The notes beneath the pieces were generated by a model, which saw only the letters and a list, made by a program, of their open reading frames with translations, was not told the origin of the DNA and did not search any database. Below, one piece after another: positions 1 to 16,633 of a stretch of DNA of 32,106 nucleotides; the first letter of the stretch is position 1; every line of letters begins with the position of its first letter. Source of the DNA: a virus; the IMG/VR virus record IMGVR_UViG_3300005731_000008, positions 1-32,106 of that record; one strand, given 5' to 3'. The position numbers were made by a program, and so were the translations under genes.

Positions 1-50
1 CCTTTTTTAATACTAAAAACTTTTAAATTATGTCATGTGATATTACAGCA
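1..50. repeat. Terminal direct repeat, left copy (circular closure)
   Basis: Bases 1-50 are identical to bases 32057-32106. They cover the T-run of the terminator behind the capsid gene and the first codons of the gene at 30. A gene start repeated at both ends shows that the sequence was read around a circle, from a circularly permuted or circular genome. The non-redundant unit is about 32,056 bp. It could in principle be a short physical terminal repeat, but 50 bp is more like an assembly overlap. Confidence 0.9.
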
Positions 51-584
51 GGTAGAGCAGAAGTATGCAAGGACTCTATTGGAGGACTAGACGCTATCTA
101 CTTTGTTAACTACGGAGACGCTCCTTATTCAGATGTTGTCTTTGACTCTACAAATACAGATGTTATCGAGACTATCAACCTAACACCTGGAACAGTTTCA
201 GCATATAAATACGAATTAAAAGGAGACGAAAACACTTTTGAAGAGACTATCACCTCAGACCGTAACACGGGAACAACTTTTTTCGAGGGAGTTCTTAATG
301 TGTCTTTGAAAAAGATGGATTTAGCTACTCACAAAGAGGTTAAATTGTTAGCGTTCGGACGTCCTCACATTGTTGTTGGAGACCGTAACGGAAATTTTTT
401 CTACATGGGCGCACATTGGGGTTGTGAACTTACAGGAGGCTCTATTATGTCAGGTGGTGCTATGGGTGATAAGTCTGGTTATACTTTGACCTTCACAGCA
501 CAGGAGGCTATCCCTACACCATTTATGGAAGCTACAGACGAGGCAGGTTTGAATACTGCTGGTCTTAACGTTGTTACTGCGTAA
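30..584 (+). CDS. Probable major tail (tube) protein
   Basis: 184 residues. Likely the second most abundant virion protein, forming the tail tube. The middle and C-terminal part (LLAFGRPHIVV, GNFFYMGAHWGCELTGG, AMGDKSGYTLTFTAQE) resembles small structural proteins of Bacteroidetes phages that I recall as tail tube or major tail proteins. The ATG at 30 follows an A/T-rich leader without Shine-Dalgarno sequence, as usual in Bacteroidetes. Across the circle join it lies directly behind the major capsid gene, separated by a terminator, and a second terminator (605-640) follows it. Such tuned read-through suits a highly expressed structural gene. Family assignment is from remembered sequence patterns; a head decoration protein is the main alternative. 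Confidence 0.6.
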   Translation: MSCDITAGRAEVCKDSIGGLDAIYFVNYGDAPYSDVVFDSTNTDVIETINLTPGTVSAYKYELKGDENTFEETITSDRNTGTTFFEGVLNVSLKKMDLATHKEVKLLAFGRPHIVVGDRNGNFFYMGAHWGCELTGGSIMSGGAMGDKSGYTLTFTAQEAIPTPFMEATDEAGLNTAGLNVVTA

Positions 585-604
585 AAAGTAACTCTTTCAT
601 GTTT

Positions 605-640
605 AAGCAGGGGGTAGTTGTATAACGCTCCCTGTTTTTT
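605..640 (+). terminator. Rho-independent terminator after the tail-tube-like gene
   Basis: The arms 605-614 and 628-637 form a 10-bp stem with two G-T pairs (core CAGGGGG with CTCCCTG), followed by a run of T to 640. It lies between the genes at 30 and 654. It also overlaps the region a TTG start at 618 would need, which argues for the later GTG start of the next gene. Confidence 0.75.
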
Positions 641-653
641 AAAATTACAACAA

Positions 654-1019
654 GTGAAAAATATAAAAGATAGAATCAATTCTCAATTATTCAAAGCTCA
701 GGAGGTAGAGCTGAAAGCGGAGCGGATTGAGTTAACATTGATAGATGATATTTGGGACGGGATAAGAGCTTCTCAAGAAATTTCTAAAAAAAATCAAAGT
801 GTTTTCAATGAGGCAAATAGTATGTTGAGTGAACAGAGAATAAGAATGCAGAAGTCCGTTAAGCAACTAAAAAAATACCAAGGGGCTTTTTTAGCAGCAG
901 CAAAAGAGCTGGGTATAAATGGCACAAACAACGAAAACTACAAGATGTCAGTTAAGGTTATTGATGAGCAAGAGCAAAAAATAAAAATACTAGGTAAGGC
1001 AATATCCGCTTTAAAGTAA
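654..1019 (+). CDS. Coiled-coil virion-associated protein, paralogue of the 30011 gene
   Basis: 121 residues from a GTG start at 654. The frame stays open upstream to a TTG at 618, but that start would sit inside the terminator. The protein from 654 (MKNIKDRINSQLFKAQ) aligns residue for residue with the N-terminus of the 30011 product (MKSIRSRVLSFMPKEE). The shared pattern continues as VELxAExIELxL near residues 17-28 and AAKxLGIN near the C-terminus, with a long charged coiled coil between. The two genes bracket the scaffold, capsid and tail-tube genes. A role in head assembly or an internal head protein is inferred; no enzyme motif is visible. Confidence 0.7.
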   Translation: MKNIKDRINSQLFKAQEVELKAERIELTLIDDIWDGIRASQEISKKNQSVFNEANSMLSEQRIRMQKSVKQLKKYQGAFLAAAKELGINGTNNENYKMSVKVIDEQEQKIKILGKAISALK

Positions 1020-1133
1020 AATTAAAGCAATATTATATTTTTTAGAGCGTTTTTTTACGCTCTTTTTTTTGTTAAGTTCTTTTCTTAGATGCCTTTCTTG
1101 CTCTCTTATAAATTCTTCAATCCAATAGTTCAT
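1011..1133 (-). CDS. Possible small minus-strand protein, 40 residues
   Basis: Open frame of 40 residues (MNYWIEEFIREQERHLRKEL, then a lysine-rich stretch, ending in IALILL). Its ATG at 1133 lies one base after the stop of the 57-residue minus-strand gene, a spacing that suggests translational coupling. The lysine-rich middle is encoded by the complement of the 1044-1070 terminator and the last residues overlap the stop of the + strand gene, so part of the frame may be fortuitous. No family recognised. Confidence 0.35.
   Translation of the reverse strand: MNYWIEEFIREQERHLRKELNKKKSVKKRSKKYNIALILL
1044..1070 (+). terminator. Rho-independent terminator closing the capsid operon
   Basis: Stem AGAGCG (1044-1049) with CGCTCT (1058-1063), an A/T loop, and a T-run to 1070. 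It lies 25 bp behind the stop of the 654 gene. On the minus strand the hairpin lacks a following T-run, so it works only for + strand transcripts. Confidence 0.85.
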
Positions 1134-1134
1134 T

Positions 1135-1308
1135 TTACCAAGTTTTTAAAATATAGGTTTCTTTGAATGGTGTAAAGTTTCCGTTATCGTCCCAATCTTG
1201 AATATCAATAGTCACGTATGTAAATCCGTTCAATTTAGACTCAAAAGTATAAACACCAAAAGCTGTCATTTTGTTTGCTTCTTCAATTGTGATAACTTGA
1301 TTTTTCAT
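1135..1308 (-). CDS. Small minus-strand protein, 57 residues
   Basis: Open frame from ATG at 1308 to TAA at 1135, read against all surrounding genes. The product (MKNQVITIEEANKMTAFGVY ... ETYILKTW) has a plausible soluble composition, with an acidic aromatic stretch DIQDWDDNGNFTPF. It starts in the same intergenic region as the divergent late promoter for 1369. The gap between the + strand genes would otherwise be empty for 350 bases, which supports it being real. Function unknown; I recognise no family. Confidence 0.55.
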   Translation of the reverse strand: MKNQVITIEEANKMTAFGVYTFESKLNGFTYVTIDIQDWDDNGNFTPFKETYILKTW

Positions 1309-1333
1309 GTTTTTTTCTGCTAATATACAAAAA

Positions 1334-1371
1334 TTAACACAATACCCACTTTCTTACGTTATATTAATATG
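1334..1371 (+). promoter_or_regulatory. Late promoter P1 (TACGTT class)
   Basis: Upstream element TTAACAC at 1334, 18 bases from TTA to the box TACGTTAT at 1355-1362, then ATTAAT and the ATG at 1369. The 23 bases ending in the ATG are identical to those before the gene at 19151, and TTAACAC is at the same distance in both. Geometry matches the Bacteroidetes -33/-7 promoter, but TACGTTAT differs from TAnnTTTG at its last two bases. Transcription would begin at or next to the ATG, predicting a leaderless message. Confidence 0.7.
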
Positions 1372-1695
1372 ATTATTCTACAAGAGACACCGAGCGCACA
1401 GGATTTTAAAATTATCCCACGCTCATACTTTGCAGATAGTATGAAGATTAAAAACGAGACAACAGGCGAAGAGCTTACCTACACCATTACAACTTCATTA
1501 GATGGGTATTATTTAACATTCTCTAAGGCTGTAACATTAAAAGAAGACACTTTCTACAATTTAACTGTTTTGGATGGTTCGGATATTGTCTACAAAGACA
1601 GAATTTTCTGTACTAATCAAACTACGTCAACATACACTGTAAGTAATAACGAGTACACAAGTAACTCAACAGATAACGACTATATAACGCTATGA
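1369..1695 (+). CDS. Small conserved structural protein before portal
   Basis: 108 residues, beta-rich in appearance, with no membrane segment. The opening (MIILQETPSAQDFKIIPRSY) and the segment YNLTVLDGSDIVYKDRIFCT resemble small proteins that commonly precede the portal gene in Bacteroidetes phages. The ATG follows promoter P1 directly. The stop overlaps the portal start by 4 bases (ATGA), so the two are translationally coupled. A virion or assembly role is inferred from position alone. Confidence 0.55.
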   Translation: MIILQETPSAQDFKIIPRSYFADSMKIKNETTGEELTYTITTSLDGYYLTFSKAVTLKEDTFYNLTVLDGSDIVYKDRIFCTNQTTSTYTVSNNEYTSNSTDNDYITL

Positions 1696-3443
1696 GTAAA
1701 GACATAAATATAATTGAATTATCACAGTATACGGCTCCTGAGATTGTAGAGGATAGCCGAGAGGATTGGGTAGAATACGGCTCCGACAATATGCACTATA
1801 ATTGGCTTATTGACCGCTTCCATTATTCACCTACCAACAACGCTGTAATAAATAACATGGGGCGTTTAATCTATGGGCGTGGAATTAGTGCAATCAACGC
1901 AAGACGTAAAACAGCAGAATACACAGCTCTAAAGGCTTTATTTACTCCAGATGTATTGAGAGGTATTTCACAAGGTTTGAAGCTGTTAGGAGACGTTTAT
2001 ATTCAATGTATCTACAATAAGCAGCACACACGCATTGAAAAGGTAGACTTTTTAACGGCTAATTATGTACGCCCTGAGAAGTGCAACGAAGAGGGAAATA
2101 TTGAAGGGTACTACTATTGCTACAATTGGGAGGACGTAAAGACATACAAACCTAAACGAATTGCAGCTTTTGGAACATCTAAGGATGAGGTAGAGCTTTT
2201 GCGTATTATGCCCTACTCTGTAGGTTTTAAGTATTTCTCTCCTGTAGATTATCAAGGCTGTCTACCTTATGCAGTACTAGAGGAAGAGATTAGTACTTAT
2301 TTAATTAACGAGGTTAAGAATGGCTTCTCTGGGACTAAGGTTATTAACTTTAATAACGGGCAAGTAGGAGACGATAAGCAACGCGAACAATTAAAGCGTA
2401 GAGTAATGTCAAAGCTCACAGGCTCGACAGGTGAGAAAGTTATCGTTTCATTTAATAGCAATGTAGAGAACAAGACTACCATTGATGATATACCGTTAAA
2501 TGATGCCCCGCAGCACTATGAATATCTATCCAAAGAAGCAGAACAAAAGATTTTAATAGGTCACAATGTAACTAGCCCAATGTTAGTAGGTGTTGTTACG
2601 GATAACCAGGGCTTTTCTAGTAATGCAGAAGAGATTGATATAGCAGCGAAATACTTCTATAATACAGCCGTCAAGCCTTATCAAGATATGATCATTGAGG
2701 CAATAGAGCAAATTCTAACTTTCAACGGTGTTACAGGTTTAGATTTGTATTTTAAGCGTCTCAACCTACTTGATTCTGTAGAGGAAAAAGCACAAGCAGA
2801 AGAAGAAACAGCACTGTCTTTGGAAGCTCAAAGAGCAGACTGGATAGATGAATTTGGAGAGGATGAAAGCGAAGAGTGGGAGTTGATAGATAGCCGAGAA
2901 GTTGACTATGACAAAGAGCAAGAACTTGACGCGCAACTATCAGAAATGAACAAGGCAGCAGCGCAAGCAGATAAAACCACACTTTCTAAAATATGGGAGT
3001 TCGCCACAGGTTGGGCGAAACCTAACACAGCAAGCGAGCAAGACAAGGAAATAGACGGTTTCTATTTTAAGGTTCGATATAAGTACGTAGGTAACAAAAG
3101 CCCAGAACGTGATTTTTGTAGGCAAATGATGAGAGCCTCTAAAATTTACCGAAAGGAGGATATTATGAGAATGGAGTCTCTAGGGCTTAACAAGTCACAC
3201 GGACATAACGGAGAACCTTACTCAATTTGGCTCTACAAAGGCGGGGTTTCATGCCATCATAAATGGGAGCGCAGAACGTATGTAAGTACACAAAAAAGAG
3301 CTTCTATAGGTTCCGCTAAGACAAGCCAAGTAAGTACAAACAAGGCACGTAAATTTGGCTATAGACCAACCAACGAAAAAGAGGTTTCTATGATGCCAAA
3401 AGATATGCCAAGACAAGGACATCACCCAGATTATAAAGGATAA
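1692..3443 (+). CDS. Portal protein with C-terminal MuF-like extension
   Basis: 583 residues. The first 400 or so have the look of a portal protein, the dodecameric ring through which DNA enters the capsid: YGSDNMHYNWLIDRFHYSPT near the start, a central mixed domain with TKVINFNNGQ and ISPM-type loop NVTSPMLVGV, then a long helical acidic stem (residues about 365-430). Residues about 450-545 form a separate module with RDFCRQMMRASKIYRKEDI and YKGGVSCHHKWERR, resembling minor-head (SPP1 gp7/MuF) C-terminal domains. It overlaps its neighbours by 4 bases and by 1 base. Portal identity follows from length, context and pattern; the MuF comparison is less certain. Confidence 0.75.
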   Translation: MSKDINIIELSQYTAPEIVEDSREDWVEYGSDNMHYNWLIDRFHYSPTNNAVINNMGRLIYGRGISAINARRKTAEYTALKALFTPDVLRGISQGLKLLGDVYIQCIYNKQHTRIEKVDFLTANYVRPEKCNEEGNIEGYYYCYNWEDVKTYKPKRIAAFGTSKDEVELLRIMPYSVGFKYFSPVDYQGCLPYAVLEEEISTYLINEVKNGFSGTKVINFNNGQVGDDKQREQLKRRVMSKLTGSTGEKVIVSFNSNVENKTTIDDIPLNDAPQHYEYLSKEAEQKILIGHNVTSPMLVGVVTDNQGFSSNAEEIDIAAKYFYNTAVKPYQDMIIEAIEQILTFNGVTGLDLYFKRLNLLDSVEEKAQAEEETALSLEAQRADWIDEFGEDESEEWELIDSREVDYDKEQELDAQLSEMNKAAAQADKTTLSKIWEFATGWAKPNTASEQDKEIDGFYFKVRYKYVGNKSPERDFCRQMMRASKIYRKEDIMRMESLGLNKSHGHNGEPYSIWLYKGGVSCHHKWERRTYVSTQKRASIGSAKTSQVSTNKARKFGYRPTNEKEVSMMPKDMPRQGHHPDYKG

Positions 3444-3955
3444 TGAAAGCACTATTAATTACACGCGAAGACATAGTTAAAAAGACTGTAATGAATGGGA
3501 ACGTAGACACCGACCAATTCATTCAGCATATTGAGATAGCTATGGATATACACATTCAGAACTATCTGGGGACTGACTTACTTGTTAAGATTCAGTCTCT
3601 AATAAGCGCAGGAACTATAGGAGATGCAGGAAACGAAGACTACAATACCTTATTAGTGAAGTACGTTAAGCCTATGCTTATTCATTGGGGAATGTACGAA
3701 TATCTCCCATGGGCTGCATACACTGTAGCAAATAAAGGAGTTTACAAGCATACAAGCGAAAACGCTGAAACAGCACAAAAAAACGAAATAGACTATTTAC
3801 AAGAAAAACAAAAAAAGACAGCAGAGAATTATACTCAACGATTCCTAGATTATATGGATTTTAACGCAGGGGAGAAGTTTCCAGAATACTACTCAAATAG
3901 TAACGAAGACGTAGACCCCTCACAAAGTACTAACTTCTCAGGCTGGGTGATCTAA
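3443..3955 (+). CDS. Head-tail connector protein, DUF6712-like
   Basis: 170 residues. It begins with a helical N-terminus (ITREDIVKKTVMNGNVDTDQFIQHIEIAMDIHIQNYLGTDLL) and has the WGMYEYLPWAAYTVANKGVYK stretch I associate with DUF6712 proteins of Bacteroidetes phages. These probably act as the gp6-like adaptor ring under the portal. The segment after residue 110 is charged and helical. The start overlaps the portal stop by one base and the stop overlaps the next start by one base, so it is in the same transcript as the portal. Confidence 0.6.
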   Translation: MKALLITREDIVKKTVMNGNVDTDQFIQHIEIAMDIHIQNYLGTDLLVKIQSLISAGTIGDAGNEDYNTLLVKYVKPMLIHWGMYEYLPWAAYTVANKGVYKHTSENAETAQKNEIDYLQEKQKKTAENYTQRFLDYMDFNAGEKFPEYYSNSNEDVDPSQSTNFSGWVI

Positions 3956-4182
3956 TGGAAAATACTATAAAATTAATAAAAGCCTACGGAGCGACTGCAG
4001 TCTTAGTTTTATGGCTTGCCAGTAACAATTTAAGAATAAAAGAAATTGAAGAAAAGCTATACAGGTGCTATGAAGACCAAATTGCAATGGATTCGCGAAG
4101 TAGTAGCTACAGAGTTAACGAAGTGGAACTTTTAGCAAAAAAAGAAAAAGAAGTTTCAGGAAAAAGAAAAGAGTGGATATGA
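3955..4182 (+). CDS. Small one-TM protein, possible holin
   Basis: 75 residues with one hydrophobic segment at about residues 10-24 (AYGATAVLVLWLAS), then a charged helical tail (EIEEKLYRC ... LLAKKEKEVSGKRKEW). It directly precedes the amidase, with which it overlaps by four bases (ATGA). Size, membrane segment and position suit a class III-like holin or another lysis protein. With a single short segment and no recognised family this remains an inference; a structural accessory role is possible. Confidence 0.45.
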   Translation: MENTIKLIKAYGATAVLVLWLASNNLRIKEIEEKLYRCYEDQIAMDSRSSSYRVNEVELLAKKEKEVSGKRKEWI

Positions 4183-4790
4183 AAGAGTTACTAGTTATTT
4201 TAGACGCAGGACACGGAGGATTAAATCCTAACAGTGGCGAATATACAACACCAGGGAAGCGCATGGTTAAAGATGACGTTGAATTCTATGAGGGTGTAAA
4301 CAATAGGGATAACGTAGAGCGAATCAAAGAAGCGTTAGAGGCTTTAGATATTGAATGCGTAGAGGTTGCCCACGAATGGAGAGATACACCTTTAAGCAAT
4401 AGAGTACGACAAGCTAATGAACTCGCAAGAGGCAGAGAGGCTGTTTATTTATCTATTCACTCAGACGCGGCAGGAAACGGCAAAGAGTGGCATACTGCGA
4501 AGGGTTTTAGTGCTTTCATTTATAACTCCACAAGAAGCAAGAAAACAAAGCTACTCGGGCAACTTATGCAACAGGAGCTAGTTTGTAACCTTGGCGAATT
4601 ATCAAGAGATAGAAAGCTAAGAAAAGCAGATTTTAAAGTGCTTAGAGAAACTACAATGCCCGCTTGTCTAATTGAGGGGGGCTTTCACACTAGCGAAAGT
4701 GAGGTTAATTTAATGGTTACTGATGAATGGAAGGATGCATTCACTAAAGCTGTAGTAGATGCGGTTTTGATTTACATTTCAGAGCTATAA
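4179..4790 (+). CDS. Endolysin: N-acetylmuramoyl-L-alanine amidase (Amidase_3)
   Basis: 203 residues, a single catalytic domain without signal peptide or cell-wall-binding domain. It cleaves the amide bond between muramic acid and the peptide stem. Zinc-site residues of the family are visible: H12 in ILDAGHGG, E38 in FYEGVNN and H94 in LSIHSD. The catalytic glutamate is E166 in CLIEGGF. An in-frame GTG at 4173 is an alternative start; ATG 4179 is preferred because it makes an ATGA junction with the gene before. With the small membrane protein before it and the spanin-like gene after it, it forms the lysis cassette. Confidence 0.9.
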   Translation: MKELLVILDAGHGGLNPNSGEYTTPGKRMVKDDVEFYEGVNNRDNVERIKEALEALDIECVEVAHEWRDTPLSNRVRQANELARGREAVYLSIHSDAAGNGKEWHTAKGFSAFIYNSTRSKKTKLLGQLMQQELVCNLGELSRDRKLRKADFKVLRETTMPACLIEGGFHTSESEVNLMVTDEWKDAFTKAVVDAVLIYISEL

Positions 4791-4820
4791 AAAAAACCCC
4801 GCCCACAAAAGCAGACAGGG
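4789..4820 (-). terminator. Hairpin that would terminate minus-strand transcripts
   Basis: Read on the minus strand, 4811-4820 and 4797-4806 form a continuous 10-bp stem with several G-U pairs and a TTTT loop, followed by eight T. On the + strand the same positions give A-C mismatches, so only minus-strand RNA folds well. No minus-strand gene is seen to the right of it. Confidence 0.55.
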
Positions 4821-4843
4821 AAACCTAACAAACACAAAATTTA

Positions 4844-4872
4844 TTGACACTTCAAAGTTAAACATATTATTT
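4844..4872 (+). promoter_or_regulatory. Promoter of the spanin-like gene
   Basis: TTG at 4844-4846, an 18-base spacer, and TATTATTT at 4865-4872, close to the Bacteroidetes TAnnTTTG box. The ATG at 4877 is only 4 bases further, so the message would be leaderless or nearly so. The gap after the amidase gene supports a separate start here. Confidence 0.45.
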
Positions 4873-4876
4873 CAAT

Positions 4877-5308
4877 ATGAAGTACATTTTATTATTCTTT
4901 TTATTAACATCCTGTACAGCTTACCAACACTTAAAGAAAGCAGAGAAGCACACTCGAAAGGCAATAGCTAAAGGAGCTACTATAGAAAAAGATACTTTGC
5001 GAATCGCGATAAGCGATACTGTAACAGATATAGATACTTTAGATAATTATATTCGAGTAACTAAAACAATTAGAGATACCTTATACATACAAGGCAACAC
5101 CACTTACATCGCTAAATCAAGAACTGAGGCAAGACAAGAGCAAAAAACAGAACGCAAGAAAATAAAAGAAGAGAATAAAACGCAAAGAAAGCAAGCTAAG
5201 CAAAAGAGGAAAGAGAGTTTTTTCTATAAATTTAGGAGTATGTTATTTATTTTACTTATATTGGGCGCATTAATTTTGGGCTATAAGCTCTTTAAAAAAA
5301 CATATTAA
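4877..5308 (+). CDS. Unimolecular spanin-like lipoprotein
   Basis: 143 residues with membrane anchors at both ends. The N-terminus MKYILLFFLLTSC carries a lipobox ending at C13, so it should be lipidated and sent to the outer membrane. The C-terminus (FRSMLFILLILGALILGYKLF) is an inner-membrane segment. Between them is a periplasmic stretch with many T, D and I residues and then a very basic coil (residues 83-115). This is the layout of u-spanins, which fuse the two membranes in the last step of lysis of Gram-negative hosts. It lies right behind the endolysin. The next gene overlaps its stop by one base. Confidence 0.65.
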   Translation: MKYILLFFLLTSCTAYQHLKKAEKHTRKAIAKGATIEKDTLRIAISDTVTDIDTLDNYIRVTKTIRDTLYIQGNTTYIAKSRTEARQEQKTERKKIKEENKTQRKQAKQKRKESFFYKFRSMLFILLILGALILGYKLFKKTY

Positions 5309-6099
5309 TGTGTAACACGATAAAAAGAAACCGTTTATTCTATGACATAGAGACTAGCTTCTGTGAAGGTCATTTCTGGAGACCTGGGTACAATCAAACG
5401 ATACTACCGCACCAAATAACAAAACACGCTCAAATAATTTGTATCTCATGGAAGTGGGAAGGGGAGGACGAGGTTCATCACTTAGATTGGGGTTTAAAAA
5501 AGCAGTGTGATAAAAGCCTATTGAAGAAATTCATAAAAGAGCTAGATAAAGCAGACGAGATTATAGCACACAATGGGGACAGGTTCGATATTAAGTGGAT
5601 TCGTACAAGAGCAGCCTTTCACGGTCTGCAAATGAAACACACGTATAACAGTATAGACACGCTCAAATGGTGCAAGAAGTACCTTAATCTACCTTCAAAC
5701 AAACTAGCGGAGGTTTGCAAGTATTTCAATCTAGTTAATAAAATAGACGCAGGAGGGATCAACACATGGGTAAACGTGGTTTATCACAAAGACAGAGAAG
5801 CGTTAGACCACATGCTTTACTACTGTGATGGTGACATCCTAAGCCTTGAGGCTGTATTTAATAAGCTGCTACCATACGCAGCCCCTAATATGCACTATGG
5901 CGTTTTACGTGGAGGTGAGAAATTCGAGTGCCCTAGCTGTGGTAAGTTACCTAAATGGAACAAGACCTACACAACGGCAGCAGGAACAGTACAGCACTAT
6001 ATGAAGTGCAGAGATAAAGAATGCGGTACTTACTTCAAAGTAAACAATAAGACCTATCAGGACTATATTACTTACAAAATCCGTAATAATATTAAATAG
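5308..6099 (+). CDS. RNase H-fold 3'-5' exonuclease with C-terminal zinc ribbon
   Basis: 263 residues. The three DEDD-type exonuclease motifs are visible: FYDIET (D13, E15), IIAHNGDRFDIKW near residue 90, and YYCDGDILSLEAVF near residue 170. These bind the two metal ions that remove nucleotides from a 3' end. After the nuclease domain come two cysteine pairs (CPSC, then CRDKEC) that look like a zinc ribbon for nucleic-acid binding. No polymerase domain follows, so it is a stand-alone nuclease. It is the last gene of the late unit starting at 1369 or 4877 and is followed by a strong terminator. Confidence 0.75.
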   Translation: MCNTIKRNRLFYDIETSFCEGHFWRPGYNQTILPHQITKHAQIICISWKWEGEDEVHHLDWGLKKQCDKSLLKKFIKELDKADEIIAHNGDRFDIKWIRTRAAFHGLQMKHTYNSIDTLKWCKKYLNLPSNKLAEVCKYFNLVNKIDAGGINTWVNVVYHKDREALDHMLYYCDGDILSLEAVFNKLLPYAAPNMHYGVLRGGEKFECPSCGKLPKWNKTYTTAAGTVQHYMKCRDKECGTYFKVNNKTYQDYITYKIRNNIK

Positions 6100-6119
6100 T
6101 CTAACTTACTAAGTTTAAG

Positions 6120-6149
6120 AGCCTTACAGAAATGTAGGGCTTTTTTTTT
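6120..6149 (+). terminator. Strong rho-independent terminator between late and early regions
   Basis: Stem AGCCTTACA (6120-6128) with TGTAGGGCT (6133-6141), one G-T pair, a GAAA tetraloop, then a T-run to 6149. It separates the late lysis/exonuclease unit from the early promoter at 6171. Confidence 0.9.
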
Positions 6150-6170
6150 AAAATAAATCTGTGAATATGT

Positions 6171-6200
6171 TTGTACATATAAACATTGTTACTATCTTTG
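6171..6200 (+). promoter_or_regulatory. Early promoter, perfect Bacteroidetes consensus
   Basis: TTG at 6171-6173, 19 bases, then TATCTTTG at 6193-6200, an exact TAnnTTTG box. Transcription should start near 6206, so the gene downstream cannot use the GTG at 6161 and must start at 6224. The consensus match suggests recognition by the unmodified host polymerase early in infection. Confidence 0.85.
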
Positions 6201-6223
6201 TTCTATACAAAAACACAAAACAC

Positions 6224-6466
6224 ATGGATATCTACAGTATTGAAGTCGGGAATATCTACAACGACGAAACAGAAAGCACAGGGCATTACGATTACATTGA
6301 GGATGCCTATTATGAAGCTGCTGAGATAGCAGAAGAAATGCACAAGCAAATCATAGAGAAGTATAAGGACAACCCAAAGTATGAACCAGAAGCATTTGAC
6401 TTTACAGAGGATATTATCTATAAAGAACAAGTTAGAGACGCTTACGAATACCATTTAGATTATTAA
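6224..6466 (+). CDS. Very acidic small early protein, function unknown
   Basis: 80 residues from the ATG at 6224 (MDIYSIEVGNIYNDETESTG). The frame runs upstream to a GTG at 6161, but that lies before the promoter's -33 element. The protein has 23 Asp/Glu and only about 6 Lys/Arg, with many tyrosines, no cysteine and no membrane segment. It is the first gene behind the strongest host-type promoter. Position and charge are like phage DNA-mimic or host-takeover proteins, but there is no recognised family and this is only an inference. Confidence 0.65.
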   Translation: MDIYSIEVGNIYNDETESTGHYDYIEDAYYEAAEIAEEMHKQIIEKYKDNPKYEPEAFDFTEDIIYKEQVRDAYEYHLDY

Positions 6467-6468
6467 TT

Positions 6469-6516
6469 ATGAAAGCATACATTGAAACAGTAAACAGAAT
6501 AAACAGAGCAATATGA
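6469..6516 (+). pseudogene. 15-codon remnant sharing its tail with the 11472 gene
   Basis: The micro-frame MKAYIETVNRINRAI has nearly the same end as the 77-residue protein at 11472 (SYIETVYRINKAI), and both stop codons form an ATGA overlap with the next ATG. The DNA is similar over about 40 bases. It is probably the leftover 3' end of a second copy of that gene, or a short translated leader kept for coupling to the gene at 6513. Confidence 0.5.
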
Positions 6517-6686
6517 AAACATTTGAATTTTTATGCGAGAAGAACTATCTAATCGCTGTAAGGTCAAGGTTTAACGTTAAACAGACAGTCGATAAATTAA
6601 AACAAAAAGGGTTAAATCCTATTTCATATCTAGAATTAGATGAGCTAGACGCTGAATTTATAGAGATAAATTATACTTTTAAATAA
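6513..6686 (+). CDS. Small early protein, 57 residues
   Basis: Starts at ATG 6513 inside an ATGA junction and ends at TAA 6686. The product (MKTFEFLCEKNYLIAVRSRF ... ISYLELDELDAEFIEINYTF) is mixed helical and acidic toward the end, without membrane segment. I recognise no family. It is translationally linked to the micro-frame before it and followed after 8 bases by the gene at 6695. Confidence 0.6.
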   Translation: MKTFEFLCEKNYLIAVRSRFNVKQTVDKLKQKGLNPISYLELDELDAEFIEINYTFK

Positions 6687-6694
6687 TAAAAAAC

Positions 6695-6997
6695 ATGAAT
6701 TTTAAAGAATTAGCAAACCAACAGGCAGTTATTAATTTAGTCGGTAAAGATATAAGTTTGGAATTTCAATATGCTGCCTCTAACTTACTAAACTATGAAA
6801 CGGTTTTACCAAAAAAGATAAACGGAGAGTATTATGATTTTGAGGTGTCTGTTTTTTATGAATCCTCTGAGTATTTTTCAATTTATGAAACGATGGAGGA
6901 TATTTGTTACAAAAGACAAGTTTTTGAACTTAAAGTAAAGACCAGAAAGCACACTAAAACCTTGTACCATAAAAAATACATTAATCCAAATAAATAA
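6695..6997 (+). CDS. Hypothetical early protein, 100 residues
   Basis: Soluble 100-residue protein (MNFKELANQQAVINLVGKDI) rich in Tyr, Phe and Glu in its middle (YYDFEVSVFYESSEYFSIYE) with a basic end (KVKTRKHTKTLYHKKYINPN). No signal peptide, membrane segment or metal motif. It sits in the run of small early genes driven from 6171. The start has the A-rich leader (AAAAAACATG) typical of this genome. Family not recognised. Confidence 0.65.
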   Translation: MNFKELANQQAVINLVGKDISLEFQYAASNLLNYETVLPKKINGEYYDFEVSVFYESSEYFSIYETMEDICYKRQVFELKVKTRKHTKTLYHKKYINPNK

Positions 6998-6999
6998 AC

Positions 7000-7182
7000 A
7001 TGAAAACACAAAATAGAATCCATAGCTTTTTTAACCGTTCTAAGGCATCCAATTTGCCCGAGAATACATACACGCCAAACACAGGGAGAAAGTCGCTCAG
7101 AATCGCTAAAACAGTGCAACCAGACGAACGAGCTACATTCAATGAGGTATTTATTAACGCACGAAAAGAATTAATGAAATGA
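7000..7182 (+). CDS. Small basic early protein, 60 residues
   Basis: Product starts MKTQNRIHSFFNRSKASNLP and is basic with few hydrophobic residues, so probably partly disordered or nucleic-acid binding. The stop overlaps the next ATG by four bases (ATGA), showing it belongs to the same translationally coupled run. No family recognised. Confidence 0.55.
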   Translation: MKTQNRIHSFFNRSKASNLPENTYTPNTGRKSLRIAKTVQPDERATFNEVFINARKELMK

Positions 7183-7424
7183 TATATAGTATAGAATACT
7201 TAAACAGAGACAGCAAACACCATGAATTTTTTCGAGTAGATGATTTGCTATTTCATTTAGAGAATGATTATTCAGGATGCGCAGAGGTTTCTATATATGT
7301 GACTGATGATTCTATAGGGTTTGAACCAGAATTATTTTGCACCGAAGACTGGAATGCAGAGGAACTTAGATTTATGGCTAATGCTTTTAATCGAATGGCT
7401 AATAAATTAGAAAAATATAAATAA
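7179..7424 (+). CDS. Hypothetical early protein, 81 residues
   Basis: Acidic soluble protein (MIYSIEYLNRDSKHHEFFRV) with strand-rich composition in the first half (AEVSIYVTDDSIGFEPELF) and a C-terminal helix (EELRFMANAFNRMANKLEKY). It starts inside the stop of the gene before and is followed after one base by the DnaA-like gene. Function unknown. Confidence 0.6.
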   Translation: MIYSIEYLNRDSKHHEFFRVDDLLFHLENDYSGCAEVSIYVTDDSIGFEPELFCTEDWNAEELRFMANAFNRMANKLEKYK

Positions 7425-7425
7425 A

Positions 7426-7755
7426 ATGAGATACAAAGAAGCAATAGAAAAATATGAGTTAGACTCTAAAAGTAGAAAGAGAGAGAACGTATGGAGAAGA
7501 GCTATAATAGCAAATGAATTAAGAGATAGAGGTCACACGACTACAGAAGTAGGTAAGCTATTTAATAGAGATCATAGCTCTATAATTCACATGGCAAAAC
7601 TATACACTGCATGGAGTATGTATCGAGATTTCAAACTGTTTAAGGCTAGATTTATGAAAGAAATGTGTAGCTTAACACTGGAGGACAAGTTGATGATGTG
7701 CGAAACGTTTGACGATTTTAAACGACTACAGGGAGAAACCCAGACGGTTAAATAA
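7426..7755 (+). CDS. DnaA domain-IV-like DNA-binding protein
   Basis: 109 residues. The segment ELRDRGHTTTEVGKLFNRDH followed by SSIIHMAKLY (residues about 31-60) resembles the helix-turn-helix of DnaA domain IV, which reads DnaA boxes; the RDHSSIIH core matches the DnaA signature loosely. There is no AAA+ ATPase domain, so it is not a full initiator. Placed just before the replication proteins, it may bind the phage origin or act as a regulator. It is the last gene before a new promoter at 7793. Function is inferred from the motif. Confidence 0.6.
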   Translation: MRYKEAIEKYELDSKSRKRENVWRRAIIANELRDRGHTTTEVGKLFNRDHSSIIHMAKLYTAWSMYRDFKLFKARFMKEMCSLTLEDKLMMCETFDDFKRLQGETQTVK

Positions 7756-7792
7756 AAAACAAAAAAAAGTAGTGGGTTTAAATAAAAGCACT

Positions 7793-7800
7793 TATATTTG
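7793..7800 (+). promoter_or_regulatory. Host-type -7 box before the replication genes
   Basis: TATATTTG at 7793-7800 is an exact TAnnTTTG box, 20 bases before the ATG at 7821 with an A-rich leader. The expected TTG at -33 is replaced by GTG at 7772-7774, so it is probably weaker than the promoter at 6171. Confidence 0.65.
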
Positions 7801-7820
7801 TAAAAACTAAAACAAAAAAA

Positions 7821-8819
7821 ATGGCAGAAAACAAAAAAGGTTTTATCCTTTATGCAGATTTAGCTCATACATTTGAGCATTTGAGTAATGAACAGAGAGG
7901 TGAGGTTATTTGGTGGGTTTTACAGTATGTTAATGATTGCAATCCAGAGCCCTTAAAAGGGTTACTAGCAGCAGTAACAGAACCTATCAAGCAACAACTT
8001 AAACGAGATCTGAAGAAATACGAAGCACGTTCAGAACGGGCGAGGGAAAACGGCAGGAAAGGAGGGAGACCTAAAGGTGAAACAATAGCGTATTCTGAAT
8101 CGGGGAAAGTTATCCCGACAGAGTCTAAGAGCAAGCATTTTGTTTACTTACTGGTTGATAAGGGTACAGGGTGTGTAAAAGTTGGGGAGACTAAAGACTT
8201 AAAGAAAAGAATTCTCAGTATACGTAAAGATGGTGAACGTTTAAGCGTTAAAGATGTCTCAGTTCTAGACTTTATAACAACAACTCGCGGTGAGGCTATA
8301 AAGGCAGAGAAGTATATTTTAGACGGTTATACTGACTATTCTATTGGCGGTGAGTGGTTTAATGCTGACTTACCTATTGGTCAAATAAAAACCCAGTGGG
8401 TTAAATTTATACCCAAAAAACCTGATACAGGTACAGATACAGGTACAGATACAGATACAGATACAGATACAGATAGTAATAATAAACAACTTCTAACGAA
8501 GTCGGATTTTGATTTTATTTTAAAAGAGATGAATTCTATATTCAGCAGGAAGTTTAAAGTTATAAGCGAAGCTACTAAGGGAAAGTATAAGGCTAGAATT
8601 AGAGAAGGCTTTACAGTTGACGATATTGTGAACTCAATGAAAGTGGTTTTTAATGATGAATTTCATAGAGAGAATAATTTTAAGTATATTACTCCAGATT
8701 ATTTCTCTAGGTACAAAACACTTACAATGCACTCTGAGGAGTTGGTTAAGGTTTCTGGAACGGATAAGCTAACAGAAAAGGCTAAACAACAAATAGAATT
8801 ATATGGCAATATTAAGTAA
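7821..8819 (+). CDS. Replication protein: DUF6291-like, GIY-YIG-like, phage C-terminal domain
   Basis: 332 residues in three parts. Residues 1-85 (KKGFILYADLAHTFEHLSNE, GGRPKGE) look like DUF6291, found in Bacteroidetes phage replication regions. Residues 106-195 look like a T5orf172/MUG113 GIY-YIG-type domain: FVYLL at 107-111, VKVGET at 119-124, R130, a glutamate at 158 or 163, and GGEWF at 176-180. A threonine-aspartate linker (202-219) follows. Residues 229-310 match the conserved phage C-terminal domain TIGR02220 (KARIREGFTVDDI, YITPDYF) of DnaD-like replication proteins. It probably acts at the origin or as helicase loader; whether the nuclease-like domain cuts DNA is unknown. It overlaps the helicase start by 17 bases. 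Confidence 0.75.
   Translation: MAENKKGFILYADLAHTFEHLSNEQRGEVIWWVLQYVNDCNPEPLKGLLAAVTEPIKQQLKRDLKKYEARSERARENGRKGGRPKGETIAYSESGKVIPTESKSKHFVYLLVDKGTGCVKVGETKDLKKRILSIRKDGERLSVKDVSVLDFITTTRGEAIKAEKYILDGYTDYSIGGEWFNADLPIGQIKTQWVKFIPKKPDTGTDTGTDTDTDTDTDSNNKQLLTKSDFDFILKEMNSIFSRKFKVISEATKGKYKARIREGFTVDDIVNSMKVVFNDEFHRENNFKYITPDYFSRYKTLTMHSEELVKVSGTDKLTEKAKQQIELYGNIK
8425..8472 (+). repeat. Hexanucleotide tandem repeat inside the replication gene
   Basis: Eight consecutive copies of ATACAG or GTACAG. In frame they encode the alternating Thr-Asp/Gly linker between the GIY-YIG-like domain and the C-terminal domain. Copy number can change in multiples of two codons without breaking the frame, so linker length may vary between relatives. 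Confidence 0.9.
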
Positions 8820-9714
8820 AGGCAGCGATACACAATATCTACTAGACTACAAACATGGAAGGATAGAGAAAGGCTTAGGTATAAATTGCGAGTTAGATAA
8901 TAATCTAAGATTTAAAAGAGGGCAGTACTGCGGAGTCTTAGGAGGTAACAACGTTGGTAAAACTTTTTTCATGACTTGGTACTTTGCTTGTCTAGCTTCT
9001 ATACATGGTTTAAAGTTTGGGCTATGGATGGATGAGAACAAGAAAGGCAAAGCTATGAGAGATTTAGTACAGTTCTACACAGGAGAGAAGCTAAAGGACT
9101 TATCAGATGAGATGATAATTAGGGTTAGCGAAGATATAGAAGAGAATTTTTATTTTATAGATAACTCCCAGCTTTACAAGCCCTCTGAATTGTTAAGTTT
9201 ATTTGAATCAAAACCTACGGATGCTGTTCTTCTTGACCCATTTAACCAATTAAACAGACCTATAGGATATTCAGAAAATATACCATTCATCAGAAATATA
9301 AAACACTGGTGTAAAACAAAAGATATAACCCTATACTTGACAATGCACCCTAACACAGAGACAGGTAGAAAGTCTTACACATATCCAGATACTCACGAAT
9401 GGGCAGGGCAGCCAATGATGCCGTTAAAGCACAACTCAGAAGGGGGAAGCGTTTTTTCTAATATGGCAGATGATTGGATAAACTTACACAGACTAAACAA
9501 ACTAGACTCTATGAAATACATAACCATGCTTGACGTAGACAAGGTTAAAGATGTTGACACTGGAGGTAGTATAACAGGCTCGGATGATTACTTATTCTTT
9601 CACTTTAACGGTGGTAAGGGTTTTTTAATAAACGGAGTTAATCCATTACAGAAGAAGCAAAACAGTTATAGAGAGAAAACAGGACTACATGAGTTTATCT
9701 CAGATGAATTCTAA
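8803..9714 (+). CDS. DnaB-type replicative helicase ATPase domain
   Basis: 303 residues with a RecA-like core. Walker A is GGNNVGKT at residues 47-54 and Walker B is AVLLDPFN near 141-148. LTLYLTMHPN-type sensor sequence (YLTMHPNTETG) follows, and the late segment WINLHRLNK resembles the DnaB C-terminal core. There is no DnaB N-terminal domain, as in compact phage helicases. It should unwind the phage fork, with the 7821 product as likely partner or loader. The 17-base overlap with that gene shows coupling. Confidence 0.8.
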   Translation: MAILSKGSDTQYLLDYKHGRIEKGLGINCELDNNLRFKRGQYCGVLGGNNVGKTFFMTWYFACLASIHGLKFGLWMDENKKGKAMRDLVQFYTGEKLKDLSDEMIIRVSEDIEENFYFIDNSQLYKPSELLSLFESKPTDAVLLDPFNQLNRPIGYSENIPFIRNIKHWCKTKDITLYLTMHPNTETGRKSYTYPDTHEWAGQPMMPLKHNSEGGSVFSNMADDWINLHRLNKLDSMKYITMLDVDKVKDVDTGGSITGSDDYLFFHFNGGKGFLINGVNPLQKKQNSYREKTGLHEFISDEF

Positions 9715-9794
9715 GCACCCTGAGAAGCGATTTAAGAGCATTTAAAGTAAAAATGGTATATTGATACCAGAGAACAAATAAAAACACGTTAGAA

Positions 9795-10127
9795 ATGATT
9801 ACATTCAAAAAAAGAACAGAGTACCAAGCAGACATAATTGCACATGATAGGATAATAGGAACACTATCTAAGATTGCAAACGCATACTATGAGCTAGAAA
9901 TCGACTACGTTAGTACTGTAGTGCCTTTATCAATGGGCAGTAAGGTAAGAGAATTAATTCAAAAAATATACGCTCATAAACTACAAAGAGAGAAACGCGA
10001 AAGAGAGAGCCCTTTTCACCCTGCAAAGAGTAGACTACACGAAGAGCATGAAGTTAAAGGGAAGAGAATTCTAGAGCTTAACGATGAGCAATTAAATAAT
10101 TTTGCTAAATTTGCTAAAAATCAATAA
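9795..10127 (+). CDS. Hypothetical protein behind the helicase, 110 residues
   Basis: Soluble, mainly helical, basic in the middle (AHKLQREKRERESPFHPAKS) with a C-terminal helix (LELNDEQLNNFAKFAKNQ). It lies between the helicase and an HNH endonuclease. An 80-base gap precedes it; a short palindrome GGTAT-N4-ATACC sits there at 9755-9768, but no clear promoter. No family recognised. Confidence 0.6.
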   Translation: MITFKKRTEYQADIIAHDRIIGTLSKIANAYYELEIDYVSTVVPLSMGSKVRELIQKIYAHKLQREKRERESPFHPAKSRLHEEHEVKGKRILELNDEQLNNFAKFAKNQ

Positions 10128-10128
10128 C

Positions 10129-10596
10129 ATGAAACGAATAAAGCAGTTCCCTAACTATTCAGTAACTAAGGATGGACAGGTTTATAGTCACAATAGAAAC
10201 AAGTTTTTAGCTGAGCATTTTGATGGTAGGGGTTATCTTAAAGTCAATCTATACAGGCATGGAAAAAGTTTTAATTTTAGAGTTCATAAATTAGTAGCTA
10301 TGGCGTACTTAGATTATGTACCAAACGGAAAACAAGATACAGTAATAGACCATATAGATAATGTAAAAACTAATAACAATTTGAGTAATCTGCAAATAAT
10401 AACAAACAGGGAAAACACTTCAAAGGATAGGGTAGGCTATTCGTCTAGATATGTAGGTGTTAGCTGGTGTAAACACCATGAAAAATGGCTATGCAGAATT
10501 AGTAGAAACGGAAAAAATAAACATTTAGGATACTTTAATTGTGAAGATACGGCGCATAAAGTGTATCAAAGAGCCTTGAAAAATATAGAAAAATGA
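10129..10596 (+). CDS. HNH homing-type endonuclease (NUMOD4, HNH_3, AP2-like)
   Basis: 155 residues from ATG 10129; the frame opens upstream at a TTG (10102) that would overlap the gene before. Residues 1-28 (IKQFPNYSVTKDGQVYS) are a NUMOD4-type DNA-binding segment. Residues 50-98 hold the HNH motif with H53, DHIDN at 74-78 and NNLSNLQIITNREN. Residues 106-145 (SRYVGVSWCKHHEKW, GYFNCEDTAHKVY) resemble an AP2-like DNA-binding domain. Free-standing HNH genes like this usually spread as selfish elements between phages; its tight packing (1 base after, 4 bases overlap before the next) shows a neat insertion. Confidence 0.85.
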   Translation: MKRIKQFPNYSVTKDGQVYSHNRNKFLAEHFDGRGYLKVNLYRHGKSFNFRVHKLVAMAYLDYVPNGKQDTVIDHIDNVKTNNNLSNLQIITNRENTSKDRVGYSSRYVGVSWCKHHEKWLCRISRNGKNKHLGYFNCEDTAHKVYQRALKNIEK

Positions 10597-10949
10597 GTAT
10601 AAACAGTAAAGACAAAGGCAACAGATTTGAAAGAGAGATTGCTAAACAGTTGAGTAAAAAGTTTAACACAAAAGCACAAAGGACTCCGTTATCTGGAGGT
10701 ATGGATTTTCGCGGAGATTTAATAGTGTTAGATCAAAGAAGCATACTATTCAACTTTAGCTTTGAGTGTAAGAATCAAGAACGTTTAAACATCTGGAAGG
10801 CACTGCACCAATGTGAGAACGACTGCGAACGATGGAAGGAGCCTGTGGTTGTATTTACTAAAAACCATGAGAACACCTACGCGGCTATGCGGTTTGAAGA
10901 TTGGATGAACTTAGTAAAGGAGTTAGAAGATTTAAGAAGCAGTGAATAA
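10593..10949 (+). CDS. PD-(D/E)XK nuclease, possibly a junction resolvase
   Basis: 118 residues. The opening KGNRFEREIAKQLSKKF with E13, then TPLSGGMDFRGDLIV with D38 and D42, and FECKN with E58 and K60, make the PD-(D/E)XK active site. Size and layout are like archaeal Hjc-type resolvases and small phage nucleases. Next to replication genes, it probably resolves branched replication or recombination intermediates. It overlaps the HNH gene by four bases. Confidence 0.65.
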   Translation: MSINSKDKGNRFEREIAKQLSKKFNTKAQRTPLSGGMDFRGDLIVLDQRSILFNFSFECKNQERLNIWKALHQCENDCERWKEPVVVFTKNHENTYAAMRFEDWMNLVKELEDLRSSE

Positions 10950-10985
10950 CAACCAACTAAACAACACTAACTGCTTTTTTCTTTT
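10935..10985 (+). terminator. Probable terminator after the nuclease gene
   Basis: AGCAGT at the end of the gene pairs with ACTGCT just before a T-rich run (TTTTTTCTTTTT). The loop is long, about 27 bases, so this is weaker than the other terminators, but it closes the replication operon before a new control region. Confidence 0.5.
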
Positions 10986-10991
10986 TACCAC

Positions 10992-11031
10992 TCATCATTG
11001 ATATTTACCGTTCATCATTGATATTTGCCGT
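10992..11031. repeat. Two tandem 20-bp repeats (iteron-like)
   Basis: TCATCATTGATATTTACCGT at 10992-11011 and the same with one change (A to G) at 11012-11031. A degenerate third start (TCGTCACAATTTGC) follows at 11032. They lie in the only sizeable gap of the early region, between the replication nuclease and a new promoter. They could be protein-binding sites of the origin or operators for the promoter at 11070. Confidence 0.85.
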
Positions 11032-11046
11032 TCGTCACAATTTGCA

Positions 11047-11077
11047 TATCGCGATACGAGGTAATGGCGTATATTTG
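11047..11077 (+). promoter_or_regulatory. Promoter with palindromic operator for the second early operon
   Basis: TATATTTG at 11070-11077 is an exact host-type -7 box, 17 bases before the ATG at 11095. The perfect palindrome TATCGCGATA at 11047-11056 covers the place where the -33 element should be, and no TTG is present there. A regulator bound to the palindrome could repress or activate this promoter. Confidence 0.65.
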
Positions 11078-11094
11078 AAGAAAACAAAACAGTC

Positions 11095-11289
11095 ATGGAA
11101 ATCACAAAAACACAATTAAAAAAAATAGCAAAAACCTATGCATCAGAAATGCAATTGAAAGAAAGTAGTTTGATGGGGTCTGAAAACGCATGTATTAGAT
11201 TGTACGGAATGGACATGGTGATAAAAGAATTTTCAAAAGAAACAAAAAAATTATTTTACAAATTGGTTGAACAATACAGAACAAAATAA
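11095..11289 (+). CDS. Small lysine-rich early protein, 64 residues
   Basis: Helical, basic (MEITKTQLKKIAKTYASEMQ), without membrane segment or recognised motif. First gene behind the palindrome-bearing promoter at 11070, so it might be a regulator of its own operon, but nothing in the sequence proves this. Confidence 0.6.
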   Translation: MEITKTQLKKIAKTYASEMQLKESSLMGSENACIRLYGMDMVIKEFSKETKKLFYKLVEQYRTK

Positions 11290-11309
11290 TGAATTAGAAA
11301 GACGAAATA

Positions 11310-11468
11310 TTGGAAACACGCACAAAGATTGAAGAAATGGCGCAAGCGTTAAAAGACAGATACGCAGCACCGACAAAAGCGCAAGCGGTTAACTATCTAT
11401 TAATGATATACCCAGACGCGCACGTAAATAATTGTATAATTGCCTATAATTTGGCATTTAAAAAGTAA
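11310..11468 (+). CDS. Small protein, 52 residues from TTG or 43 from ATG
   Basis: The frame is open from a TTG at 11310 (ETRTKIEEMAQALKDRYAAP) to TAA at 11468; an internal ATG lies at 11337. Product is helical and alanine-rich at first (KAQAVNYLLMIYPDAHVNNC). GC-richer codons (gcg, cgc, ccg) than elsewhere suggest that this stretch to about 12335 came from another source. Family unknown. Confidence 0.5.
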   Translation: METRTKIEEMAQALKDRYAAPTKAQAVNYLLMIYPDAHVNNCIIAYNLAFKK

Positions 11469-11471
11469 TAG

Positions 11472-11705
11472 ATGAAAGCAACATTGAACAAAAAGCTACA
11501 CGAACGAGCGTTGGCAATTATTGAGATAATCGAAACAGCCGAACGAAGAATTGAACAACAGGAGCGCAATAAAGTCGAGATACCTTCTGTTTTTTTTAAC
11601 ATTAAAGATAGTTGCGACAAGCACATAGCAACCCACCGCGAAGCCATCGAACGGCTGGAAAAGTCCTACATTGAAACTGTTTACCGAATAAACAAAGCGA
11701 TATGA
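11472..11705 (+). CDS. Small coiled-coil protein, 77 residues
   Basis: Two long charged helices (ERALAIIEIIETAERRIEQQ and ATHREAIERLEKSYIETVYR) joined by a short non-helical part, so probably an antiparallel coiled coil. The last 13 residues recur in the micro-frame at 6469. It is coupled by ATGA overlap to the next gene. No known family. Confidence 0.6.
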   Translation: MKATLNKKLHERALAIIEIIETAERRIEQQERNKVEIPSVFFNIKDSCDKHIATHREAIERLEKSYIETVYRINKAI

Positions 11706-11926
11706 AATACAAAGCAAAACTAACAACATCAACTGGCAGCGGTTACATCGAAGCGGACATCAAAGAAGAAGTCCAGGACACTATGCACGATTGGATGATT
11801 AACTACGGCATAGATTACAAAGGTGACAGGCTAGTAAAAATCCAGGAGAAAGCCCGACCGTCCGAAAGCATTTGGAAAAAGGGCAGTACTATTATTATTT
11901 GTAATTGGAATATACAGGAACTATGA
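11702..11926 (+). CDS. Hypothetical early protein, 74 residues
   Basis: Soluble protein (MKYKAKLTTSTGSGYIEADI) with strands at both ends (GSTIIICNWNIQEL) and a helix in the middle (EEVQDTMHDWMINYGIDY). ATGA overlaps at both ends place it firmly in the small-gene operon. No family recognised. Confidence 0.6.
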   Translation: MKYKAKLTTSTGSGYIEADIKEEVQDTMHDWMINYGIDYKGDRLVKIQEKARPSESIWKKGSTIIICNWNIQEL

Positions 11927-12162
11927 AACCAACTAACTTTATAAACTTTCCAGAAGGGATAGACCCGAACAACTACCGAGTTAGCGGATACTTACAAGGA
12001 AAGGAACTTTGTTGGACAGCTATAATAACTTTTGACTTGTTCGATGTAGTGAGTTATTTACATTCGAGTGAGTGCCAAAGATCAGGCCGCGAAGTTATAC
12101 ACTGTATCGGCTACCGTGGGCGCGAGAAGAAAACAACAGTACTAACGATTGAAAAGAAATGA
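11923..12162 (+). CDS. Hypothetical early protein, 79 residues
   Basis: Starts at ATG 11923 (MKPTNFINFPEGIDPNNYRV), chosen because it makes an ATGA junction; a TTG at 11905 in the same frame is less likely. The central part (KELCWTAIITFDLFDVVSYL) is hydrophobic but too broken to be a clear membrane segment. Its end is basic. Family unknown. Confidence 0.6.
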   Translation: MKPTNFINFPEGIDPNNYRVSGYLQGKELCWTAIITFDLFDVVSYLHSSECQRSGREVIHCIGYRGREKKTTVLTIEKK

Positions 12163-12335
12163 CAGACGAGCAAAGACAAGAAATCAAAGACCAGATTGCC
12201 GAACTTGAAAAACAGTTGACAGGCGAAATGATGCAAGACATGGAAACAAAAGACAAAATCCACAACTTAGAAATGAAGCTGAACGGAACTAAACCAACTG
12301 ACAGCCATTTTGACTGCGTTGGTTGTTCGGGATAA
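12159..12335 (+). CDS. Small helical protein with terminal CxxC, 58 residues
   Basis: Starts by ATGA overlap at 12159 and stops at 12335. The body (EIKDQIAELEKQLTGEMMQD) is a charged coiled-coil-like helix; the end FDCVGCSG has a CxxC pair that could bind metal or be redox active. It is the last gene of the operon starting at 11095. No family recognised. Confidence 0.6.
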   Translation: MTDEQRQEIKDQIAELEKQLTGEMMQDMETKDKIHNLEMKLNGTKPTDSHFDCVGCSG

Positions 12336-12443
12336 ATTTTTAAATACAAAAGATCTTAAAAACAGAAATTATGTACAGCAAATAAAAAGCAAAGAATACA
12401 TAAAAATAAAAGCGTTTCAATGATTTTTATTAGATGTTATTGC

Positions 12444-12451
12444 TATATTTA
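12444..12451 (+). promoter_or_regulatory. Promoter box of the recombination operon
   Basis: TATATTTA, one base off the TAnnTTTG box, 24 bases before the ATG at 12476 with an A-rich leader. It lies in a 140-base gap, the natural place for a new start. The -33 region is only T-rich. The box lies inside the longer open frame starting at 12434, so that earlier ATG is not the start. Confidence 0.55.
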
Positions 12452-12475
12452 CAGAAACAATTAAAACAGATAAAC

Positions 12476-13773: not shown

Positions 13774-13795
13774 AAAATTTTAAAACAATTTAAAA

Positions 13796-15824: not shown

Positions 15825-15830
15825 ACATTA

Positions 15831-15869: not shown

Positions 15870-15888
15870 CACCTAACAAATTAGGAAT

Positions 15889-16479: not shown

Positions 16480-16485
16480 TATTAT

Positions 16486-16614: not shown

Positions 16615-16633
16615 ATCTGTAAAAATTAATACA

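Follow-up and report, generated by a model that had tools for sequence, protein, structure and literature searches.

Candidate late promoters of a phage-encoded ECF-type sigma factor, set at a conserved distance from the start codon in a group of Bacteroidota phages

Redirection of the host RNA polymerase to late genes by a phage-encoded sigma factor has been described in Salmonella phage 7-11, whose sigma factor is gp47, and in phiEco32, whose counterpart is gp36 (PMC8948821). The promoters of phage 7-11 are bipartite, with the form GTAAtg-16-aCTA, and across related phages both the sigma factor and the promoter sequences have diverged while the promoter positions were kept. Phage sigma factors that read two-part late promoters are thus already known, as is their co-divergence with these promoters at retained positions; leaderless transcripts have no occurrence in the 7-11 paper. 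Promoters of comparable form are those of the cellular ECF regulators, such as Mtb sigmaH, for which promoter complexes have been solved. These factors combine sigma2 and sigma4 without sigma3, and read an AAC-type -35 element (GGAAYA at -34 to -29 in sigmaH) and, across a rigid spacer, G-11, T-10 and T-9 relative to the start (PMC6411747). In the Bacteroidetes, sigma-A promoters are AT-rich and combine a -33 element, TTTG, with a -7 element, TAnnTTTG, which has near-invariant T-6 and G-5 and lies only 4-5 nt from the start; in F. johnsoniae, the nearest host that has been studied, leaders average 33 nt and exceed 10 nt in 87% of the predicted transcripts (PMC6847099).

The window analyzed here is a viral sequence of 32,106 nucleotides from IMG/VR (IMGVR_UViG_3300005731_000008). 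A direct repeat of 50 bases at its termini (1-50 = 32057-32106), in a record listed without end repeats, suggests that the genome is probably complete, with a length of about 32,056 bp. By portal comparison its only cultured relatives are the Nonlabens (Persicivirga) phages P12024L/S (Inhavirus, JQ823123), and a megablast search of positions 1-16000 against cultured phages gave no match. A scan of host genomes returned two weak matches only, namely to a Winogradskyella metagenome-assembled genome (MAG) and to a MAG labelled Euryarchaeota. The former, taken together with the host of P12024L, Nonlabens sp. IMCC12024, points to a flavobacterium-like member of the marine Bacteroidota as the probable host.

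This genome resembles the 7-11 and phiEco32 systems in having a phage sigma gene and two-part promoters ahead of operons that are classed as late from their gene content, with conserved positions and diverged sequences. It differs from them in the phylum of its host, in the ECF pattern AAC..GTT of its promoters, and in their fixed distance to the start codon. It shares with sigmaH and other ECF systems the domain composition of the factor and the -35, -10 and spacer pattern, but the factor is phage-encoded and proposed to serve structural genes, for which the A of the start codon is the predicted +1. We consider it likely that five sites in the window are late promoters for this sigma factor, leaderless at three sites and leadered at two; dozens of related phages that are uncultured appear to share the arrangement. 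They are as follows:

P1, 1334 to 1369, + strand: -35 element TTAACACAA at 1334-1342; -10 box TACGTTAT at 1355-1362, with GTT at 1358-1360; predicted start 1369, the A of the ATG
P2, 19116 to 19151, + strand: -35 element TTAACACAC at 19116-19124; -10 box TACGTTAT at 19137-19144; predicted start 19151, the A of the ATG
P3, 27806 to 27841, + strand: weak -35 element TTGATGCAA at 27806-27814; -10 box TACGTTTA at 27827-27834; predicted start 27841, the A of the ATG
P4, 29957 to 30013, + strand: -35 element AACAC at 29957-29961; -10 box TACGTTAT at 29975-29982; predicted start 29989 with a 22-nt leader; ATTAATATG at the start codon, 30005-30013
P5, 17563 to 17595, + strand: -35 element TAACAG at 17563-17568; -10 box TACGTTAT at 17581-17588; predicted start 17595, still within the 3' end of ORF 17412-17603, with a 34-nt leader to a small-terminase-like ORF

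The initial annotation had described four promoters heading structural operons, with TACGTT boxes at 1355, 19137, 27827 and 29975 on the + strand. All of these coordinates were found to be right, but a fifth copy at 17581 had been missed, and each of the five precedes a structural or packaging operon, in line with the promoter reading. The transcription units are:

1369 to 3443, + strand: start of the P1 operon, a 108-aa ORF followed by the portal protein (1692-3443)
17629 to 19114, + strand: P5 operon, the small-terminase-like ORF (17629-17919, named by position) and the terminase large subunit (17909-19114)
19151 to 27742, + strand: P2 operon, a 235-aa ORF and tail-region genes, up to the tape measure protein
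27841 to 29782, + strand: P3 operon, a head-maturation-protease-like ORF (27841-28452) and a 445-aa ORF
30011 to 32014, + strand: P4 operon, a 147-aa ORF, a scaffold-like ORF (30459-31067) and a capsid-like ORF (31088-32014)

The last of these ORFs is named by its position and conservation because PHROGs assigns no function to its family. Given the terminal repeat, the P4 operon is expected to run across the genome join, probably into ORF 30-584.

The sites are related by more than the box. The extended element TACGTTNNATTAATATG occurs in exact copies at 1355, 19137 and 27827, with six bases separating the 8-mer box from the ATG in each case, and is absent from all of 1000 dinucleotide shuffles; similarly, TACGTTATAT is found four times on the + strand against a shuffle mean of 0.035. 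As TACGTT alone is common (33 copies on both strands against 18.6 expected, which is weak evidence), it is the extended element that counts. P1 and P2 further share CTTTCTTACGTTATATTAATATG, a run of 23 bases that becomes 24 if the following A is included, and TTAACAC (1334-1340 and 19116-19122, respectively) 21 bases before the box. In P4, 28 bases separate the end of the 8-mer box from the ATG at 30011, and ATTAATATG is still present at the start codon. The P5 copy, CTTACGTTATATTAA, is identical to P1 and P2 over 15 bases, and TAACAG precedes its box by 12 nt; the copy falls within the final codons of ORF 17412-17603, ahead of the terminase genes, with ATTAATATG downstream at 17599-17607. P2 and P5 are conserved in two 96%-identical relatives (L004 and L005), in which the P5 box is kept and its ATTAATATG is not. 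A position-specific scoring matrix trained on the P1 homologs of relatives, with the species of the window left out, ranked P4, P1, P5, P3 and P2 at 1, 2, 7, 22 and 38 across both strands, although its scores alone do not exceed the shuffled maxima, and the degenerate consensus alone is too unspecific as a genome-wide classifier. The ECF-type pattern, namely a -35 element with AAC or AC, a spacer of 16-17 nt and a -10 element with GT(T), is seen in the window sites and in the relatives, the exceptions being some P2 clades and P3 of the window, where the -35 element is poor (TTGATGC).

A candidate reader of these promoters, overlooked in the initial annotation, is encoded upstream of the terminase genes, next to a conserved ORF:

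14537 to 15064, + strand: ECF-type sigma factor of 175 aa (TIGR02937, Pfam and PHROG matches), the proposed reader of P1-P5
15396 to 15824, + strand: neighbor of the sigma gene, conserved in relatives, with invariant cysteines in the arrangement CxxC ... CxxC

The product of the former gene passes the curated TIGR02937 (sigma70-ECF) model with 48.3 bits against a cut-off of 42.9, scores just above the threshold of Pfam Sigma70_r2 (24.7 against 24), and belongs to PHROG 1740; TIGR02937 is matched by all 19 members of the family that were tested (E<0.1). Profile searches gave SigW, a sigma factor fragment, SigL and SigE as the best PDB matches. The AlphaFold model shows two helical domains, corresponding to sigma2 and sigma4, joined by a low-confidence linker (74-89) with no sigma3, its pTM being only 0.43. 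The modelled C-terminal sigma4 aligns to region 4 of E. coli sigmaE on -35 DNA (2h27; Z 9.4, 2.1 A, 69/69 residues) and also matches 3hug, while the whole chain matches ECF chains with a large rmsd, as the placement of the domains is not fixed in the model. From these profiles and the model, the protein is classified as an ECF-type sigma factor, with core binding and transcription predicted. The sigma gene and its neighbor are syntenic in most relatives' records that cover the region, including that of cultured P12024L. A tblastn search of cultured phages with either protein gave no match at E 0.01, and profile searches recovered both in P12024L. The neighbor is possibly a partner of the sigma factor or of RNA polymerase; its predicted structure has a mean pLDDT of 69, and the fold search gave no match with E below 4. 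Its homolog in P12024L (CDS 22090) has a late promoter of its own.

The conservation of the sites was examined in about 200 IMG/VR loci, found with the terminase, the sigma factor, the 235-aa ORF and the portal. From these, 95 non-redundant upstream regions of P1, P2 and P3 homologs were compared with 612 other intergenic starts, of which some 'control' hits resemble late promoters of other genes. The late upstream regions carry a two-part signal consisting of (A/T)AC(AA), 16-17 nt, GTT, 8 nt and the start codon. Relative to the A of the start codon, the enriched columns, late against control, are G-11 (58% and 11%), T-10 (76% and 28%), T-9 (73% and 35%), C-29 (46% and 13%) and A-30 (77% and 39%), with T-1 also strongly enriched; since the sequences share ancestry, the column p-values are overstated and are to be taken as descriptive. 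In 49 of the 95, GTT and the start are exactly 8 nt apart, and this gap is also the commonest in the P1, P2 and P3 homologs separately (30/43, 11/29 and 13/23, respectively, if GTA is allowed), while the spacer between xAC and GTT is mostly 16-17 nt. In some P2 clades (L081, L089, L091 and others) the adjacent box is absent and the element is displaced or unclear; these genes probably have leaders.

The initial annotation had named conservation of both box and spacing in related phages as its own test. The promoter reading withstood this test in that the spacing is conserved; the spelling of the box is not, and varies by lineage among TACGTT, TTCGTT and TTAGTT ahead of the same genes. The full forms are TTACGTTATATTAAT-ATG in the window, TTTCGTTTAATAAGT-ATG in the relative G001, TTTAGTTATATAAGT-ATG in G004 and G005, and CGTTAATATA in P12024L. 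This re-spelling is accompanied by divergence of the sigma factor, which is mostly only 28-41% identical in relatives whose large terminase subunits (TerL) are 75-81% identical. Box distance tracks sigma distance (Mantel r 0.65, p 0.0004), also given TerL distance (partial Mantel r 0.55, p 0.001), both in a small sample of 15. P12024L itself has a homologous terminase, portal and sigma factor (P12024L_35, 'Sigma-70 region 2'), and seven matching promoters of the form AACAA..CGTTA beside the annotated starts of CDS 179, 3031, 5412, 22090, 24771, 26011 and 27612, GTT and start being 8 nt apart in nearly all of them. It is nevertheless distant from the window, with TerL only 57% identical and CGTTA as its box, and the annotation of JQ823123 lists no promoter.

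Taken together, these features suggest a mechanism in which the host core RNA polymerase, carrying the phage ECF-type sigma factor, would read P1-P5, with sigma4 contacting the -35 element, (A/T)AC(AA), and sigma2 the -10 element, here ACGTT, across 16-17 nt. At P1, P2 and P3 the +1 would be the A of the ATG, yielding leaderless structural mRNAs (a leader of 0-2 nt), whereas at P4 and P5 the two-part promoter sits farther upstream and would give leaders of about 22 and 34 nt. The predicted start follows from the comparison with sigmaH. When the phage columns are numbered from the A of the ATG, they fall on G-11, T-10 and T-9, with AAC one base closer than in sigmaH and no parameter fitted, and by this match transcription at P1, P2 and P3 is expected to begin with the A of the ATG. 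The geometry thus supports the earlier prediction of a start at or beside the ATG, with leaderless messages as its predicted consequence.

The initial annotation had attributed the boxes to a different reader, namely the host sigma-A with TACGTT as its -7 element. This appears unlikely, even though TACGTT fits the TAnnTT half of TAnnTTTG, P3 has a TTG 21 nt upstream, and the sigma-A geometry likewise predicts that transcription begins no more than about 2 nt from the ATG. The boxes TACGTTAT and TACGTTTA do not have the final G of the host element: T-6 and G-5 are both absent at P1, P2, P4 and P5, and G-5 is absent at P3. Relatives have TTCGTT, TTAGTT or AACGTA at this place, breaking even the TAnnTT half, and the AAC of the -35 element is not TTTG. 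Genuine host-type TATATTTG boxes precede early-region genes instead, and a phage sigma factor is present that matches the promoter geometry and co-varies with the box. If the phage sigma factor is the reader, it could still start transcription a few nucleotides upstream, so that the spacing would reflect a compact layout with short leaders. The leaders of 5-18 nt predicted for the same two-part promoter in many relatives and the mostly leadered messages of the host speak for such an arrangement, which we nonetheless regard as fairly improbable. The predicted distances from start to ATG in the relatives are bimodal: the distance is exactly 0 at 33 sites, 1-3 at six and 5-18 at the others, with no site at 4. 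This pattern speaks for messages that truly lack a leader rather than for a graded series of short leaders, and the ECF geometry puts the +1 on the A of the ATG without adjustment. T-1 is found in 88% of ATG-adjacent sites and 28% of displaced sites; being enriched only next to the ATG, it is equivocal as evidence for an initiator.

Least probable, and in our estimation very much so, is that the real promoter lies in another place and that the box either binds a regulator, as an operator or activator site would, or acts in translation close to the start codon. The closeness of the box to the ATG would suit such a role, as would the A at -3 and -6 in ATTAAT, A at -3 being a Kozak-like signal in Flavobacterium (PMC6847099). 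Against it, both parts of the signal are shifted together, farther from the ATG, at P4, P5 and the displaced sites of relatives, and A-3 and A-6 are not enriched at late genes over controls. ATTAAT is itself lineage-specific, with ATAAGT and other spellings in the relatives. Hence, the suggestion in the initial annotation that ATTAAT serves translation is not supported as a general role, though a role at the leadered P4 is possible.

In the open-licence literature, covered non-exhaustively, we found no earlier report of ECF-type geometry with a fixed promoter-to-start-codon distance in Bacteroidota phages; what is new relative to 7-11 and phiEco32 is that a phage group shares this fixed geometry. 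It is slightly more probable than not that a large and almost uncultured group of Bacteroidota phages has its structural genes transcribed from ECF-sigma promoters joined directly to the start codon, with late mRNAs leaderless by design and sigma factor and box co-diverging such that each lineage has its own late-promoter code; leaderless late messages might favor phage translation in hosts that do without Shine-Dalgarno sequences. As host messages are mostly leadered, leaderless late mRNAs would set those of the phage apart from most of them, and a resulting aid to phage translation is a matter of speculation. These observations provide a sequence-based account of late gene control in abundant aquatic phages for which one cultured pair (P12024L/S) was found. 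The differing spellings constitute a natural series of sigma-promoter pairs that could be useful for understanding -10 reading by ECF factors and as a source of orthogonal promoters, and the role of leaderless mRNA in Bacteroidota is testable with the existing isolate P12024L and its seven promoters.

Certain other features of these genomes were also observed. A scan of positions 1-20000 for E. coli-type sigma70 promoters gave 59 sites against 59.9 expected, and hence no signal. A short tandem repeat (GATACAGATACA..) lies at 8424-8470, inside ORF 7821-8819. ORF 30011-30454, which follows P4, is of the same protein family as ORF 618-1019, and this family also has two copies in G001. Host-type TATATTTG boxes at 7793-7800 and 11070-11077, 17-20 nt before the ATGs at 7821 and 11095, are likely early promoters. 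In the window, a small minus-strand ORF (approximately 1139-1308) precedes P1, and P3 overlaps a minus-strand TATATTTG (27819). P12024L (L070) has small minus-strand genes between its late operons, at 2750-2980, 5123-5365 and 25649-25945; the first two have host-type TATATTTG and the third the similar TATATTGC, divergent from and overlapping the late promoters.
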